Origin: Rhizophlyctis rosea
Lineage: Eukaryota > Chytridiomycota > Chytridiomycetes > Rhizophlyctidales > Rhizophlyctidaceae
Direction: 5' to 3'
Assembly: GCA_027596075.1 (NCBI GenBank)
Contig: JADGJC010000032.1
Location: 124,001 to 188,000, forward strand
Length of the DNA: 64,000 nt
The position numbers and the translations under genes were made by a program. This document shows, in pieces, positions 46,601 through 58,143 of this stretch. A model generated the notes under the pieces. The model was not told the origin of the DNA, ran no database searches, and saw only the letters and a list, made by a program, of their open reading frames with translations. Each line of letters starts with the position of its first letter. Position 1 is the stretch's first letter.

Positions 46601-48095
46601 ATGGATACGGGAGGAAGCTCTAAGTCGTACAGTGTTCCATACACCAGACTCTACGTGAAGAATCTCGGCGACCAGACTACTGTTGAGACTCTTCGGACCT
46701 TGTTCGAGCCCTTCGGGGCAGTGACCTCCATCGACCTCCTAACCGACAGCGCGGGTACATCACGTGGGTTTGGCTTTGTCAACTACGGCGACCACGAATC
46801 TGCCAAGCGCGCCGTCGACGAGCTACACGGCAAGGACATCAACGGCAAGGAGCTCTACGTCTCTCGTGCCCAGAAGAAGGCCGAGCGTGAGGAGGAATTG
46901 AGGAGGCAAGACGAGAAGAATAAGGAGAAGGACGTTGAGCCAGCCGCAAGCGGCACGGAGCGTGAAGGTGAGTCTCTACCTCACAATGAGCCGAAGAATG
47001 AGGACGATATTGTCAACGACACTTTTGTAAGTTTGACGTGATTTTCCCCCACGTTCATGCAAAGGCCGAATGGGATGACATTGCGCTCATTTGTTTCTGC
47101 TGGCTTTTCATTAACACGGCTTGAACTGTTGAAATTTTAGGAACAACTGATCTCGACCGACGACCAAACTCCATCTGCGAGCGTCCACTCCTCCTCTGCA
47201 CCCGCATACTACTCGCTGGCCATTCATCATGCAGACAAAAACGAAGAAGAGGAAGACCTCTCCGATGACATTGAGATCATGCCTTTCAGCATTTTTCAAA
47301 AACACGAGTGTCGGCGGTGACTATCTTGAACTTACGTCAGGTCAACTGCAGAAATATTCGAAGGTATGGTGCAAATCAAACATATACCGTCCATGCATCA
47401 TGAAGATGGGCAGACACTGAACTGCTTCCCAATCCATCACAGACTTTCCAAGAACTTGCAAACAACGACGTCTTGTCGCTCAAACCCGACGAATTCAAAG
47501 CAGTCTTGGCGGCTCAGGGACTGGTGTTAACCACCGTATGTGTTTCCGGCGTACAAGTATGAACTTGCGAACACGAGTTGTAACAATTGACCATTGTCTC
47601 GCAGGACGAGGAGCTCGAGGAAGCTTTTGAGACTCTTGCTTGTGATACTATTGACTTGGAACAGGTAACAACGCACTGAACGTCCACAACCCTCTTTGTC
47701 CTTTGAAACTTACGTCTTCCCTGGTGTGCTCCAGTTTGTCGACTACATGAAATCCCAACAAGAAGACCACGCGGTTACGTCAGCCAAAGGCAAGAATACC
47801 ATCTCGCCGCAAGAGGACGATAAGGTATGTCGACATATTATGCATTGTTGTCTACTCAGACTTATAACATCGACCCTGTATCAGCCCGTCATGCTACCGT
47901 ATCACTTATACCCTTACGACGTCGTCAACGCCGTCAAGTCTTTCCTCGAGGTTGAGGAGGAGTATGATGAGGTGTGTGAAAGGTCTTCTAAACACAGAAC
48001 ATGAAGATGCATACTAAGGGGCAAAAACACAGTCGCTTTGCGGATCCGTCTGTTGGGGCGCCGGTGGGGAGGTGGCCGGATTCGTGCCCGTGTAG
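46601..48095 (+). CDS. PABP RRM3-like protein with EF-hand-like C-terminus
   Basis: ATG 46601 (MDTGGSSKSYSVPYTRLYVK) opens one RRM: RNP2 LYVKNL, RNP1 SRGFGFVNY, then DELHGKDINGKELYVSRAQK and [11 protein letters not shown], the characteristic end of PABP RRM3. The first intron (47027-47140) keeps phase into EQLISTDDQTPSA, an acidic linker, then ELANNDVLSLKPDEFKAVLA, AQGLVLTT, DEELEEAFETLACD, TIDLEQFVDYMKSQ. That resembles a pair of EF-hands with shortened, probably non-calcium-binding loops. Later exons read PVMLPYHLYPYDVVNAVKSF and end at the TAG at 48093-48095. One junction (near 47309-47340) needs a 31-33 base intron; if that is not spliced the protein would stop at 47318-47320 (TGA), before the EF-hand part. 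First of three PABP-like genes on this strand. Confidence 0.68.
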
Positions 48096-48766: not shown

Positions 48767-49475
48767 ATGGCAGAACATACACACGACCCATCCACCACAG
48801 ACCCCTCCTCCCACCGCTTTACCAAATTCTACGTAAAAAATCTCGACGCTTCCACAACAGACGACTCCTTCCGTGTCCTCTTTGAACCCTTCGGAACCAT
48901 TATGGGCCTTTCTTTACTCAAAAACAAAACCGAGGATGACAAGTCCCGCGGGTTCGGTGACCTATGCAGACCACGAGCACGCCAAACGCGCCATTCGCGA
49001 GCTCCACGGCAAGGAAATCAACGGCAAAGAGCTTCACGTCGCGCGTTTTCGGAAGCACGCGGAGCGTGATGAGGAGGCGAGGAGGCAGAAGGCGAAGATT
49101 AGGCAGGAGAGGGAGGATAGAATGAACATGTACCAGGGTGTCAACCTCTACGTCAAGAACTTGGATGATGCTATTGATGATGAGCAATTGCGGGAAGAGT
49201 TTTCCGGTTGTGGGAATGTTACTTCTGCCAAAGTCATGAAGAATAAGAAAACTGTATGTGATTGGGAACGAGCCCGTATCCACCATGGAAATCAAAAAAC
49301 TTCTTCTGATGATTCACAGGGAGCACCAAAAGGCTTTGGTTTCGTCTGCTTCTCTTCTCCTGACGAGGCCACCAAGGCCATCTTTGAGATGAACGGGCGT
49401 GGGATTGGTGGGAGTTGTTGTCCAATTCATGTTGCTCTCGCCAAGCCAAAGGAAAGTAGGGTCACGGAAGGATAG
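48767..49475 (+). pseudogene. PABP RRM3-RRM4-like gene with frameshift
   Basis: ATG 48767 (MAEHTHDPSTTDPSSHRF) runs into an RRM with RNP2 FYVKNL and the first half of RNP1 (DKSRGFG). At about 48955-48960 the frame is lost: compared with the paralogue at 52.9 kb (ttcggttttgtgaac), five bases are missing (ttcggtgacc). The shifted frame continues perfectly: [54 protein letters not shown], a GTATGT intron after KNKKT, then [20 protein letters not shown] and the stop at 49473-49475. The intron position in RRM4 is identical to that of the gene at 52-54 kb. It could be a young pseudogene, an assembly error, or a shortened protein using ATG 48935. Confidence 0.7.
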
Positions 49476-51651: not shown

Positions 51652-52121
51652 TTTGAGTATAAGTTGACGGTGGTGAATATAGCACATACCCTGCGCCCAC
51701 GAGAAACTTGCGGGAACACGCACAAGAGGCTGTCAATAGCGTCTGGAATGTCTTTTGGAAATTGAAGAAGAAAATGTTGAACCGCAGGCCCTGTTCAGAG
51801 CGAACTCCGCTTTTTCGCGTCGATCTATTGAGCTATTGAGCGACGGCTGACCAATTTGTTGTATTCCTTATCAATGAGTCATCACTCAACACACGTGATC
51901 CCGCAGCAGGTCTGGAACTGTGCGGCAGACCCTAAAGACCCTCGAGTGGATACACAAAACCCGCTTCCACTCCTTCCCACCCTCCCGCAATCTTGATCAA
52001 CAAAAAGTCGTGTTGTTCCTTCCCACAGCAACATTGGCTTGTAACTGCGTACTAGTACTGTCCGCTCTATTGGCCGTAAATTGTCTCGAGCATTCGAAGT
52101 GGAGTCATCGCGGACACCAAC

Positions 52122-54370
52122 ATGGACCCAGACTGTATACCGGCTCCTTTGCATCAATATCAGAAGACGACTGGTAAGAAAAAGTAGACTGCTGGGAGGT
52201 GAATGATTCAATCAACTTTGCTCATTGGCTCAACAGGATCATCGCCTGAGCATTCATCCGCTGCAGTCACACCCACTTTGCACTACACCACACAAGCGTC
52301 CGCCTTGTCTCAGGAAGTAGGACCTCAATTGGATGTGAACGCGCCTGAGTTTGTACCATCAACGCCGGACGGAAGTGATTACAAAGACGACGCACCAAAC
52401 GAGCCGTCCCTCCGCAAGTCTGGCCATAGCAACATCTTCATCAAGAACTTGGACCCCGCCATTGACAACAAGGCTCTTCACGACACCTTTTCTGCTTTCG
52501 GTAACATCGTGTCCTGCAAGGTCGCCACCGAGAATGACATCTCGAAGGGCTATGGGTTCGTCCGCTATGAGACTGCTGAGGCTGCTGAGGAGGCTATCAA
52601 GCACGTCAATGGAGTGTTGTTGAACGACCGTAAAGTGTGAGTTGTATTTTATGGAATTCGTGGAAGTGCTACATGCATGATATCACGGTGGGAAAGCATC
52701 ATTGACGGCCTTAACCATCAACATCTACGTCGGTCTCCACTTCCCCACGCATGGACGTTCGATACCCACTACCCTTTCCGTGAAAAATCTTGTCGAGTCC
52801 ATGACCGACGACGGCCTCCGCGCCCTTTTCGAGCCCTACGGCGAGGTCACTTCGGCCGTTGTCAGCAAGGACGAGGACGGCAAGTCCCGCGGATTCGGTT
52901 TTGTGAACTATGCCGACCACGAAGCTGCCACCAAGGCTGTCGATGAGCTCCACGGCAAGGACATGAGCGGGAAGGCGCTTTACGTTGCTCGTAATCGCTC
53001 GAAGATTGAGCGTGAGGAGGAGTTGAGGAGGCAGTATGAGAAGATCAGGGAGGAGAAGTTGAACAAGGACCATGGTGTCAACCTCTACGTCAAGAACCTG
53101 GATGATGCTATTGATGACGAGAAGTTGAGGCAAGAGTTCTCCGTTCACGGTACTATCACCTCCGCGAAGGTCATGAAGGATGAGAAGACTGTATGTATAT
53201 GTGGGAAAAGTTTGCGTGTGGTATGGAAACAAAGGCTGACATATTCGTTTCACAGGAAACCTCCAAGGGCTTCGGCTTCGTCTGCTTCTCTTCTCCTGAG
53301 GAAGCCACCAACGCCGTCACCGAGATGAACGGTCGCATGCTCGGTAGCAAGAACATCAGTGTCGCCCTCGCTAAATCCAATGTGGTGGATTCCAGTGGTG
53401 AACAGTCAAGGTCTGGATCTGGAAAAGGGAAGCTTCCGTGAGTATATCCCGCAGCATGCGTTCTGCTATTCGACATGCATTGTGATTCTTCCGGTGCAAC
53501 CTCATTGACATGTGATTTATTTGTTTGCTTTCATGCAGCGAAATCAACGCGTCGGTTGCAAAAGATCAGGAAAAACAAGATGCTATCGTCAGTCTCGAAC
53601 TCACTGTTGACATTGCTGCAAACGATGACAACTCTGTCTGCACCCTCAGCACCGAAACGATGGAGCAATTGAAGTTATTTAACGGGTAAGTCCATAAAGT
53701 TGTGGTGGCTGCGCTGTTCTGTGATGTGATTTTGTATATGAAATCGGAATGTTTGAAATCTGAATCGCGGATCAAGAAGAGATGACGAACGCTTTCTCAC
53801 ACGTCTTTTCCGCAGCCAATTTGTCACAGTGAGGACGACTGAGGGGCGCGAGTCGATCTTGATTGTTCTGTCTGAGTCTGAACTTCCGGCTGGAGAGGAG
53901 TTTCCGCCTGGTTGCATCCGGATCAACAGGGTCGCCTGCTCGAACCTAAGCATCGGAGCGGGGGATGTCGTCTCCGTCCACGCATGTACCGACATCAAGT
54001 ACGGCAAACGCATCCACGTTCTTCCCATCGACGACGCCGTCAAAGGCCGCGCCGAAAACCTCTTCGACATCTACTTGAACCCGTACTTTTCGGCGATTTA
54101 CAGGCCGGTGAAGAGGGGGGATCTGTTCATCGTGCGGGGTCCTTTGAGGGCGGTGCAGTTCAAGGTGGTGGAGTGTGATCCGGCACCGTATTGTATTGTA
54201 AGTTGTTTGTGTCACTTGCGGGATTTGTTGCTTCAGCTTTGATGTGGTAGAATGCTAATGTTGCGACATAATAGGTGACGCAGAATACTATCATTTATTG
54301 TGAGGTCGATGCGCTTTTGGATCCTACGCTACATCTTTACGCCGACGGTCTCACCGATCGACTCGCCTAA
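52122..54370 (+). CDS. PAM2-like + PABP RRM2-3-4 + Cdc48/p97 N-domain chimera
   Basis: ATG 52122 ([18 protein letters not shown]) is spliced to [16 protein letters not shown]2-like [11 protein letters not shown] (52326-52364) follows. RRM2: [31 protein letters not shown]3: [42 protein letters not shown]4: [20 protein letters not shown], intron after [27 protein letters not shown]1 and the MLLE domain are missing. After GKGKLP a phase-2 intron (acceptor 53538) leads to the Cdc48 N-domain: [112 protein letters not shown], ending TDRLA and TAA 54368-54370. No D1/D2 ATPase follows. The exon starting at 53539 has no ATG of its own, which supports true fusion. The intron between RRM2 and RRM3 has no AG at the expected site; a canonical choice (donor at 52631, acceptor before 52697) adds about ten residues. 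Confidence 0.8.
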
Positions 54371-54380
54371 TGGTGCTCTG

Positions 54381-55942
54381 ATGAACAATGGTGAGTATGG
54401 GCTTTGATTGGGTTCCCGCCTTGAGCGAAGAATCCGCTGCCAAATTTAACTAACATTGGCGGTGACTCGCGATTGAATTACAGATGGACAAGACAACGAG
54501 ACGTGGACACCAAGCGGTCAACGGGGTCCGCCGAAGACGGAGATTACACCACCCGAGTTTGCGGAATCCCCGCCCATCCCACCGCCAACATCGTCTTCCG
54601 CTTCTTCTCCGTCCACGAAACAACATGGCCAAAAAATCTCGTCGACAGGAGATCCACTCGATGTGCCTACGTCACCGACCAAAACTGAAGAACCACCGAC
54701 ACCGTCTCGTCCCAGCAGAAGGCCATCTAATGTGGCGTCGGCTCCTTCATCTTCATCTACGCCCAAGTCTGCGCCGAAGATTGAGATACCAGACGTCCGT
54801 GTTCCCGGATGTCCACCAATTGAAGTCAAAGTTCGAGATCCGGCCGGGCGACCTGTTCTGGGAAGCGCAAACAATTCCTTCCACTTCAACCTCCCGTACG
54901 GCACGCACCTTCAATTGGTTTCACTGGTCCAACCTACAGCCCTGTACTATTCCGCTCATGCGCTGTACTACATCACTCACGGCAAGAAGGATTGGGCGCT
55001 TGTTGTATACTATGATGGGTTCAAGGGCAAGGCTTCGGAGGAGGCCATCCCCCTGGTGGCATCGGATGGATTGAAGCTCAAATTGTTCACTGGGGAAGAT
55101 GTTGACGACGATGCATACGCATCGGGTCGGTCTAAACCGCTTTGCAGTTGGGATCCTAACGAAGCTGAGGCTCACACAGTGGTGCGCGCAAGTCTGGACA
55201 ATAAGTTGGCATTTGCGACCCGCAAATGCGTCGTGGTGGAGGATGCAGGGAAGGCCGGGTATCGTTCGTCCTTTGCCGCCCATGTATACGGATCCAAAGT
55301 TGGGGAAGAAGGCTTTCAAGCTTTGTCGTCGGAAAACCAATCCATGAATTCACCAACCGTCTCCTCAATCCTCATCGCTCCCTCCAAATCCGCCGCCCCC
55401 ACAACCCGCAAGTCCGAAGTGTCAGCTGAAAGGGCTGCAGCGGTCTTGAAGAAGTCTTTGGAGGGGGAGAACCCCTTTGAGTCGCTGGAAGGTGCGAACG
55501 GCTTGGGAATGGTGGACGGCAGCGAGAAGAGGAATAGCGGCAGCAGTGAGGATGGCGGACGGACGGTGGAGGGTCCGCCGGGAACGGCTGCACCGAATTG
55601 GAACCACCACCACGTTCCGGTCAAAGTTGGTGGTGAATTCGATCGCCAAGGCGGTGGAGGATGTGAGTGGGGCGGGGAGTAGCTCGAATGGTGCTGGGTC
55701 TGAAAGGTCTCCTACTGGGCCATTGAATGCGATTGGTGGGTTTCCGGCGCAAGGGGAATCGGCGACTGCGATTGGTGGAATTGTTGGAGTGGGTGACGTT
55801 GGTGCTTTTGTGGATGAGGTATGTTCCCACTTGGTTGCATTTGAAAAGCTTTTGTGATTGATCAGATTATTGGCAGGAGGCTCTTCCGGGCGTCCCAACG
55901 TGGAATACGGAAACCGGCGAGTTGGAGAGCTTTGCGCCGTGA
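54381..55942 (+). CDS. Protein of unknown fold, closely downstream of the chimera
   Basis: The only reasonable in-frame start is ATG 54381, giving MNN and then an intron, or else the coding region continues from the previous gene. Exon 2 reads DGQDNETWTPSGQRGPPKTE, a Pro/Ser-rich linker, PKIEIPDVRVPGCPPIEVKV, then a compact domain: NNSFHFNLPYGTHLQLVSLV, ALYYSAHALYYITHGKKDWA, LVVYYDGFKGKASEE, LKLKLFTGEDVDDDAY, LDNKLAFATRKCVVVEDAG. A Ser/Gly-rich tail continues (IAKAVEDVSGAGSS, GVGDVGAFVDE), and after an intron (55819-55876) it ends EALPGVPTWNTETGELESFA, P and TGA. One intron near 55.56-55.62 kb is inferred from a frame change. Family not recognised. Its start lies 10 bases after the chimera stop. 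Confidence 0.6.
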
Positions 55943-57115: not shown

Positions 57116-58143
57116 ATGAGTTTCTTCGGGCTCAAGGGGGTGAGTAAAGGTCCACAAAGTGGAGGCGGTGCGGGTGGGGTTGGGAATGCGTGGAGAGGGT
57201 TCGGCGCGTAGGGGTGAGAGAGGACAATTCAGGGGTTTGGCATACCGAATCACTGTCGTTCTCCACTTATGGAAGCCTGCAGAAGACTTGGGCTCCGTGC
57301 CAGAAAGTGAGAACCAATAGCATAATCACTTTCTGGACGAATTCATGGTCGACAAGGTTGAGTTCAATTGCTTGTATGCTTGCTGACAATATACCCCATC
57401 CACAGCACAAAACCTTCAAACCAAAACGCAACATCCCCGAAGGCACCTCCCAATACGCCCTCAAAAAATATGCCGAATCAACCCTCGGCAGCGGAAACCT
57501 CCGTCTAGCCGTCCAACTCCCCGAAGGCGAAGACCTAAATGAATGGCTCGCCGTCAACACCGTCGACTTCTTCAACCAAATCAACATGCTCTACGGCACC
57601 ATCACCGAATTCTGCACCCCGCAAGAATGCCCCGTCATGTCCGCCGGCCCAAAATACGAATACCACTGGTGCGACGGCGTCCAATTCAAAAAACCCGTCA
57701 AGGTCTCCGCACCCGAATACGTCGACTACCTCATGACATGGGTCCAATCCCAACTAGACGACGAAGCCCTCTTCCCTTCCAAAATCGGCGTCCCCTTCCC
57801 CAAATCTTTCCCCTCGGTCGTCAAAACAATCTTCAAGCGGCTCTTCCGCGTGTACGCTCACATCTACCACGCGCACTTTCCGCGCATTGTGAGTTTGGGA
57901 GAGGAGGCGCACTTGAACACGAGTTTTAAGCATTTTGTGTTTTTTGTGATGGAGTTTGGGTTGATTGAGAAGAAGGAGCTTGTGCCGTTGGAGGAGTTGA
58001 TTAGGACTTTGACGAATGAGGCAAGGAATGCGAATGGGGGTGTGGGTGGTGGCCCGGGGGATGTGGGGAGGGCTGTGGCGGCTAGTCAGGCTGCGGCGGC
58101 GGTTGGGGCCGGTGCTAGTGCGGGGAGTGGGTTGGCGCAGTGA
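57116..58143 (+). CDS. MOB1: Mob1 kinase coactivator
   Basis: Mob1 binds and activates NDR/LATS-type kinases (Dbf2 in yeast) in mitotic exit, cytokinesis and Hippo-like signalling. Exon 1 is only MSFFGLKG (57116-57139) and joins, in phase across an intron of about 260 bases, to HKTFKPKRNIPEGTSQYALK. The Mob fold is complete: LRLAVQLPEGEDLNEWLAVN, TVDFFNQINMLYGTITEFC, the zinc ligands in CTPQECPVMSAG and YAHIYHAHF, YEYHWCDGVQFKKPVKVSAP, YVDYLMTWVQSQLDDEALFP, LNTSFKHFVFFVMEFGLIEK. An Ala/Gly-rich tail of about 50 residues extends past the usual end and coincides with the G-rich half of the exon. It is flanked on both sides by clusters of the 97-base repeat. Confidence 0.97.

Follow-up and report, generated by a model that had tools for sequence, protein, structure and literature searches.

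The locus and its reading frame

The window analyzed here, a stretch of 64,000 nucleotides, lies within contig C246 of the 44.1-Mb assembly of Rhizophlyctis rosea, and positions given without a contig refer to it. Seven exons on the forward strand (52122-52173, 52237-52629, 52697-53190, 53256-53437, 53539-53685, 53816-54197, and 54275-54370), separated by GT-AG introns, form an open frame of 581 amino acids. From its 5' end, the model encodes a part bearing a PAM2-like motif, then three RRMs, and then the N domain of Cdc48. In Pfam, RRM_1 matched three stretches (208 bits), while CDC48_N (43.5 bits, cut-off 35.1) and CDC48_2 (27.8 bits, cut-off 22.4) both scored above their cut-offs, and thus all three families expected from the original prediction were found. 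There are three RRMs, not the four of poly(A)-binding protein (PABP), and they align to RRM2, RRM3, and RRM4 of the PABP encoded on C196 in the same genome.

A deposited R. rosea protein of 1016 amino acids, P0001, is the same as the 581-aa model over residues 1-558 and contains the same join between RRMs and Cdc48 N domain. The record is named 'PP2A regulatory subunit B', a label also found on many PABP records among the matches listed. The original prediction was that RRM2-4 of a PABP are joined in frame to a Cdc48 N domain through a plausible intron, and both the open 581-aa frame and P0001 bear this out. The join is not due to chance, since P0001 has it and the junction intron matches, in place and phase, intron 1 of the intact C212 gene for Cdc48. 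It had also been proposed that the protein stops after the N domain. This is true of the 581-aa model, in which a TAA ends at 54370, but not of P0001, in which splicing from the donor at 54300 to the acceptor at 54483 carries the frame past residue 558 and beyond the N domain.

The 14 Pfam families listed for the 581-aa model include no AAA family, nor do those listed for P0001, as expected from the claim that the D1 and D2 ATPase is missing. The MLLE domain was absent from the model and from the P0001 list as well; a search of the genome itself gave two MLLE matches, on C196 and C400. An AlphaFold2 model based on a 12-row alignment (mean pLDDT 39.4, pTM 0.27) was too poor for use.

Five source loci

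Using genome-wide DNA searches and local alignment, we located the sources of five segments, S1 to S5. The features of the locus are as follows.

51803-51899, forward strand: 5' flank fragment, 76% DNA identity over 99 columns to C609:78865-78962 (reverse)
52109-52394, forward strand: S1, matching C621:65387-65082 at 78% DNA identity, with a 13-nt leader, exon 1, intron 1 (kept), and the start of exon 2
52401-53375, forward strand: S2, matching the PABP gene at C196:43348-42337 at 84% DNA identity, with RRM2, RRM3, and RRM4 and two parental introns, one without its acceptor
52630-52696, forward strand: intron 2 of the deposited model, with a weak donor (GTAAAG) and the acceptor GGGAAAG
53411-54309, forward strand: S3, matching Cdc48 on C212 at 97, 83, and 79% DNA identity in three blocks, with three parental introns kept
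53438-53538, forward strand: junction intron, phase 2, with the site and phase of intron 1 of the intact Cdc48 on C212
54310-54600, forward strand: stretch with a TAA at 54368-54370, an ATG at 54382, and intron 7 (54300-54483 as deposited, or 54391-54483)
54601-55243, forward strand: S4, common to the tail of the Kelch protein P0121, C617:78721-78079, 78% DNA identity
55421-55794, forward strand: S5, common to the tail of P0195, C613:185127-185523, 79% DNA identity

The five segments correspond to five unlinked loci of the same genome, all in sense orientation and end to end on C246. Fragments of at least five unlinked genes have been copied here at the DNA level, with their introns, and set end to end. 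The two-part fusion originally described is therefore correct in its PABP-Cdc48 join but incomplete, as at least five loci contributed and the 5' end comes from a third gene (C621). S3 extends from Cdc48 exon 1 minus its start codon (SGSGKGKLP) through the end of the N domain. DNA identity to the source loci was 76-84%, except in one 34-bp block at 97%. The same searches found no match for 54310-54600 or for 55244-55420. On C609, a tandem array with a unit of ~120 bp lies ~600 bp from the stretch that matches the 5' flank of the fusion, as judged by eye.

One frame can be traced through S1-S4, or only as far as S3 if translation ends with the TAA at 54370. In S5, there is a 1-nt insertion near 55632, where the deposited model omits 25 nt; we consider this omission too short for a credible intron. 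The BLAST alignment of S4 contained a compensated pair of 1-nt gaps. Only two of 7986 scored candidates, P0121 and P0001, carry S4, so this segment could have been copied in either direction. S1 and S5 may likewise have been copied either way. For the PABP part, we compared C196 with P0049, another R. rosea PABP record, which probably comes from another assembly, there being no such locus in the present one. All 20 of 20 sites that distinguish the two, and at which the mosaic matches one or the other, side with C196, which places the copying after the split of the C196 and P0049 lineages.

Silent divergence (pS) was 0.35-0.72 in the first part of S3, then fell abruptly to 0.11-0.26 in Nc, and in S4 it rose from 0.07 to 0.72. 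Patchy gene conversion or copying in several steps would give such abrupt shifts along 53600-55243.

Introns and the Cdc48 joint

Of the six introns in the pieces from C621, PABP, and Cdc48, five (introns 1, 3, 4, 5, and 6 of the mosaic) have their splice sites at parental positions, and the sixth lacks the acceptor. As the parental introns were kept, the copying was at the DNA level, and copying from mRNA is excluded for these pieces. A retrocopy-derived chimera was rejected on the same grounds, because parental introns were not lost (five at parental sites, the sixth without an acceptor).

At the joint, exon 1 of C212 Cdc48 encodes a 10-residue stretch, followed by intron 1 and EINPSD. In the mosaic, SGSGKGKLP ends the RRM4 exon and is followed by an intron at the Cdc48 place and phase, then by EINAS. 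The Cdc48 start codon is ATG in C212 and AGG in the mosaic, and the alignment starts at the G. Either the codon mutated, or the breakpoint of the copied fragment lies inside it. With the Cdc48 start codon absent, translation of the full N-domain part has to begin upstream. We saw no ATG that would lead in frame into the exon at 53539, in line with the earlier observation that this exon has no start codon of its own. A separate start for an N-domain gene was thus rejected, both because no in-frame ATG into this exon was seen by eye and because the start in C212 sits in exon 1.

The weak point of the model is intron 2, between RRM2 and RRM3. Its ancestral acceptor ACAG is now ACAT, and the intron of the deposited model has the lowest pyrimidine content of the introns compared. 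If it is left unspliced, the frame stops after 151 aa. Among 97 GT-AG pairs that we tried, 22 preserve the frame; when the inherited donor (GTGAGT at 52637) is paired with an acceptor at 52865, the product is 527 aa in frame, with RRM3 cut. The 581-aa model depends on the weak intron 2 sites.

Conservation of the frame and of the sequence

We found no stop in 814 aligned codons, a set that excludes the unassigned stretches, gapped codons, and S5 past its frameshift. Neutral simulations gave a mean of 8.7 stops, and none of 5000 runs was stop-free (0 of 2000 in a separate simulation); with 40% fewer changes, 18 of 5000 runs had no stop. For S1-S3 alone, 27 of 5000 neutral runs were stop-free, or 149 of 5000 with 40% fewer changes, and the argument from the frame is accordingly moderate for this part. 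It is also helped by the choice of splice sites. Indels were multiples of three in 10 of 11 cases in exons and in 3 of 11 in introns (Fisher p = 0.0075), counts that rest on one MAFFT setting, as the BLAST alignment splits some gaps differently. Identity to the parent was 0.71-1.00 in exons and 0.43-0.71 in introns.

The amino acid sequence gave a different picture from the frame. Of the five blocks aligned in S1-S3, four had a ratio of replacement to silent changes of 3.3-4.3 and one, RRM2, had 1.7, compared with a neutral 2.8-3.1, if all replacements and half of the silent changes are assigned to the mosaic branch. S1, RRM3-4, and the N domain took up replacements at close to the neutral rate, and RRM2, S4, and S5 at a lower rate; in one S4 block, there were 16 silent and 2 replacement changes. 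Pairwise dN/dS (NG86) for the N domain was 0.51, where 0.5 is our rough neutral expectation against a constrained parent.

We then asked where the replacements fell relative to invariant sites in outgroups that we chose among the matches listed (16 proteins on the PABP side and 15 Cdc48 proteins), nearly all from chytrids and other early-diverging fungi. In RRM2-4, 17 of 44 replacements were at invariant sites (21.6 expected at random), and in the N domain, 29 of 67 were at sites invariant in the 15 other Cdc48s (32.8 expected at random). The parents had none in either comparison. The frame has been kept, yet the sequence has not been held as it has in PABP or Cdc48.

Sequence features of the protein parts

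The RNP1 and RNP2 motifs look intact in RRM2 and in RRM4 (14 residues in each). In RRM3, the aromatic tyrosine of RNP2 is lost (IYVKNL to LSVKNL).

The N-domain part is 64% identical to the C212 Cdc48 protein and matches N-domain chains of p97 at E ~1e-50. Compared with its own Cdc48, 51 of 87 aligned residues are the same up to KYG (approximately Nn) and 56 of 73 after it (approximately Nc). The original prediction of a full Cdc48 N domain is upheld in that CDC48_N and CDC48_2 both match, but the domain has diverged in both halves. The closeness of Nc to its parent need not reflect selection on the protein, because its silent divergence is also low; gene conversion or patchy age would explain it equally well. 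By hand count on the alignment, R25, R53, and D55 of p97, which we take to be at or near the inter-subdomain cleft, are changed to E, N, and Q, respectively. The SHP II pocket residues of p97 named in PMC9814400 are R113, H115, E167, and H183; by the same hand count, the mosaic keeps R113, H115, and E167 and has Y in place of H183. The p97 loop 141-EAYRP-145, as named in PMC5389986, reads AIYRP in the mosaic.

S1 contains a 12-residue PAM2-like motif that scored 13.5 bits with Pfam PAM2 (E 0.059), below the cut-off of 20. The PAM2 consensus that binds MLLE is quoted in PMC4466420 as xxLNxxAxEFxP, and the motif of the mosaic agrees with it at five of six fixed positions, with Asp for Asn.

Neighboring copies and other mosaics

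Two further PABP-like copies lie upstream of the mosaic.

46601-47039, forward strand: gene A, with one PABP RRM3-like domain
48767-49475, forward strand: copy B, with PABP RRM3-RRM4, a match of ~590 bp and a frameshift at RNP1 of RRM3

In the gene A region, which reaches to 47960, DNA downstream of gene A (47476-47545 and 47725-47769) is similar to C95:9534-9822. Beyond the mosaic, copy B, and gene A, shorter queries (E <= 0.001) gave flank matches to other contigs of 190 bp, 238 bp, and two of 40-44 bp. The 190-bp match, at 57509-57698 in a gene that is presumably MOB1-like, is a 92% partial copy at C223:3437-3627. The 238-bp match, at the MOB1-like gene, is 68% identical to C45. Partial gene copies thus occur elsewhere too, but at none of these places are several sources combined in the manner of the fusion, with the possible exception of gene A.

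A second mosaic was found at C161:33010-34524. It contains a Cdc48 exon-2 fragment (88%) and a D1 fragment (92%), followed by a 0.8-kb insert (86% to C25), which from its sequence we take to be UDP-glucose dehydrogenase-like (UGDH-like), and then Cdc48 again (93%). The joint from D1 to the UGDH-like insert is open in one frame, and the joint from exon 2 to D1 is out of frame. A short Cdc48 exon-2 fragment, 76% identical, is also present at C3:93364-93485.

We searched for signs of transposon capture around the mosaic. Between 50600 and 56600, no terminal inverted repeats of the Pack-MULE kind (minimum 16 nt) enclose the mosaic from end to end; the region contains three inverted pairs of 18-21 nt that are 76-83% complementary. 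The Helitron family PF14214 had no match in the genome, and the control genomes also gave none. As a control, positions 1-40000 of the window gave 13 matches at E <= 1e-6, the longest of 169 bp, but this query missed its own locus and its sensitivity is doubtful. The shorter genome queries, unlike this control, did recover their own locus.

Search for the same architecture

Two protein searches were made, each of which scored only the ~8000 candidates with most words in common. With the 581-aa query, P0001 came first at 1254 bits and the next match had 556 bits; none of the other 119 proteins listed (best 120 of 7984 matches) has CDC48_N or CDC48_2. With residues 374-1016 as the query, P0001 was the only one of all 78 matches that joins a Cdc48 N domain with RRMs or with the tail. 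The earlier statement that this PABP-p97N combination had not been described thus held in both sets of matches (the best 120 of 7984 and all 78 of the second query). A fusion conserved in chytrids was rejected, since the architecture was seen only in P0001 among the matches listed. No PABP-RRM/Cdc48-N fusion and no R. rosea mosaic gene was found in the titles and abstracts of the open-access literature, which does not prove their absence.

Origin of the gene and alternative readings

That the gene originated as a mosaic is close to certain. We further consider it somewhat probable that the mosaic is a young gene, specific to its lineage, with its frame preserved and a putative protein product; that the product is stable and has a role on mRNPs is much less certain. 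Ectopic DNA copying may have placed the fragments here, either during the templated repair of a break or by way of a mobile element that captured them. A transcript would be made and spliced through Cdc48's own first intron, giving an mRNP-binding protein. Through its PAM2-like motif, the product could bind the MLLE domain of the intact PABP (C196) and so be placed on mRNPs. As RRM1 and MLLE are missing, the product may compete weakly with PABP or serve as its decoy, and the N domain would merely be carried along or, at best, offer part of a cofactor site.

The main alternative is a decaying chimeric pseudogene, in which the pasted fragments, perhaps once expressed, are now drifting and make no protein with a role. 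This would account for the replacements, which are close to neutral over most of the RRM and N-domain parts and almost randomly placed relative to invariant sites (17 of 44 and 29 of 67), for the lost acceptor of intron 2, for the frameshift near 55632, and for the frameshift in the adjoining copy B. It does not readily explain 814 codons without a stop and indels mostly in frame, and the S4 block with 16 silent and 2 replacement changes is hard to obtain without selection on both copies. We regard this reading as possible but doubtful. The locus could also be two adjacent genes misjoined in annotation, one with PAM2, RRMs, and N domain that ends at the TAA at 54370 and a second that starts at the ATG at 54382 and includes S4-S5. 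In favor of this, GTGAGT at 54391 seems a better donor than GTGAGG at 54300, which the deposited model uses, but a gap of only 11 nt between stop and start is unusual for eukaryotic genes. Two genes are rather unlikely, although they would be compatible with the other readings and would leave the joint between RRMs and N domain unaffected.

The original prediction was of an adaptor whose working N domain would recruit p97 cofactors to mRNA or compete for them there. The family match of the N domain holds, three of the four SHP II pocket residues named in PMC9814400 are kept, and Nc is better kept than Nn. Against this, H183 of that pocket is Y, R25, R53, and D55 have become E, N, and Q, the EAYRP loop (PMC5389986) reads AIYRP, and change in the N domain is close to neutral, with replacements at invariant sites about as frequent as expected at random; the low silent divergence of Nc moreover offers another reason for its conservation. 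The data give the adaptor no direct support, and we consider it very unlikely. An artefact of assembly or annotation that joined reads of different genes is scarcely credible. Long joints in draft assemblies are a general risk and nothing specific pointed to one here, and the segments, bar the 34-bp block, differ from their parents by 16-22% in DNA and by indels, so they are not misplaced parental sequence.

The young mosaic gene may be one outcome of something more general. A process in R. rosea could paste intron-bearing gene fragments in sense and now and then make multi-domain frames, some of which are kept. The five-source gene and the C161 mosaic would then be two products of this process, and the combination of PAM2, RRM2-4, and Cdc48 N domain, perhaps with the tail of the Kelch protein, would be one that was kept. 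We rate this as unlikely, because one joint of the C161 mosaic is out of frame and the 40-kb control was weak.

Comparison with known systems

Chimeric genes rank among the main sources of new domain combinations, and the well-known ones are mostly old, are fusions of two genes, or derive from retrocopies or plant transposons. Here, PABP RRMs and a Cdc48 N domain form a combination that is absent elsewhere among the matches listed. Relatives of all five pieces are present in the same genome, introns have been retained, and some of the joints are resolved to a few bases; the origin, splicing, and early selection of a new gene are therefore directly testable.

Compared with Pab1/PABPC, in its own copy on C196, the mosaic has the same RRM2-4 and two intron positions at 84% DNA identity, but lacks RRM1 and MLLE, and its RRM2-RRM3 linker and RRM3 RNP2 are changed. 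From Cdc48/p97, in its own copy on C212, it has the N domain with three intron positions, but neither the start codon nor the D1 or D2 ATPase. With PAM2 proteins of mRNPs, such as Paip1 and Ustilago Upa1, it shares a PAM2-like motif, which is below the Pfam cut-off, while the remaining protein is unlike them. In chimeric genes made by Pack-MULEs and Helitrons, several gene fragments are joined in one unit, introns included. The mosaic resembles the Pack-MULE chimeras in its joined, intron-bearing fragments and differs from them in having no enclosing terminal inverted repeats; for Helitron chimeras, the genome gave no Helitron match, as was also the case for the controls.
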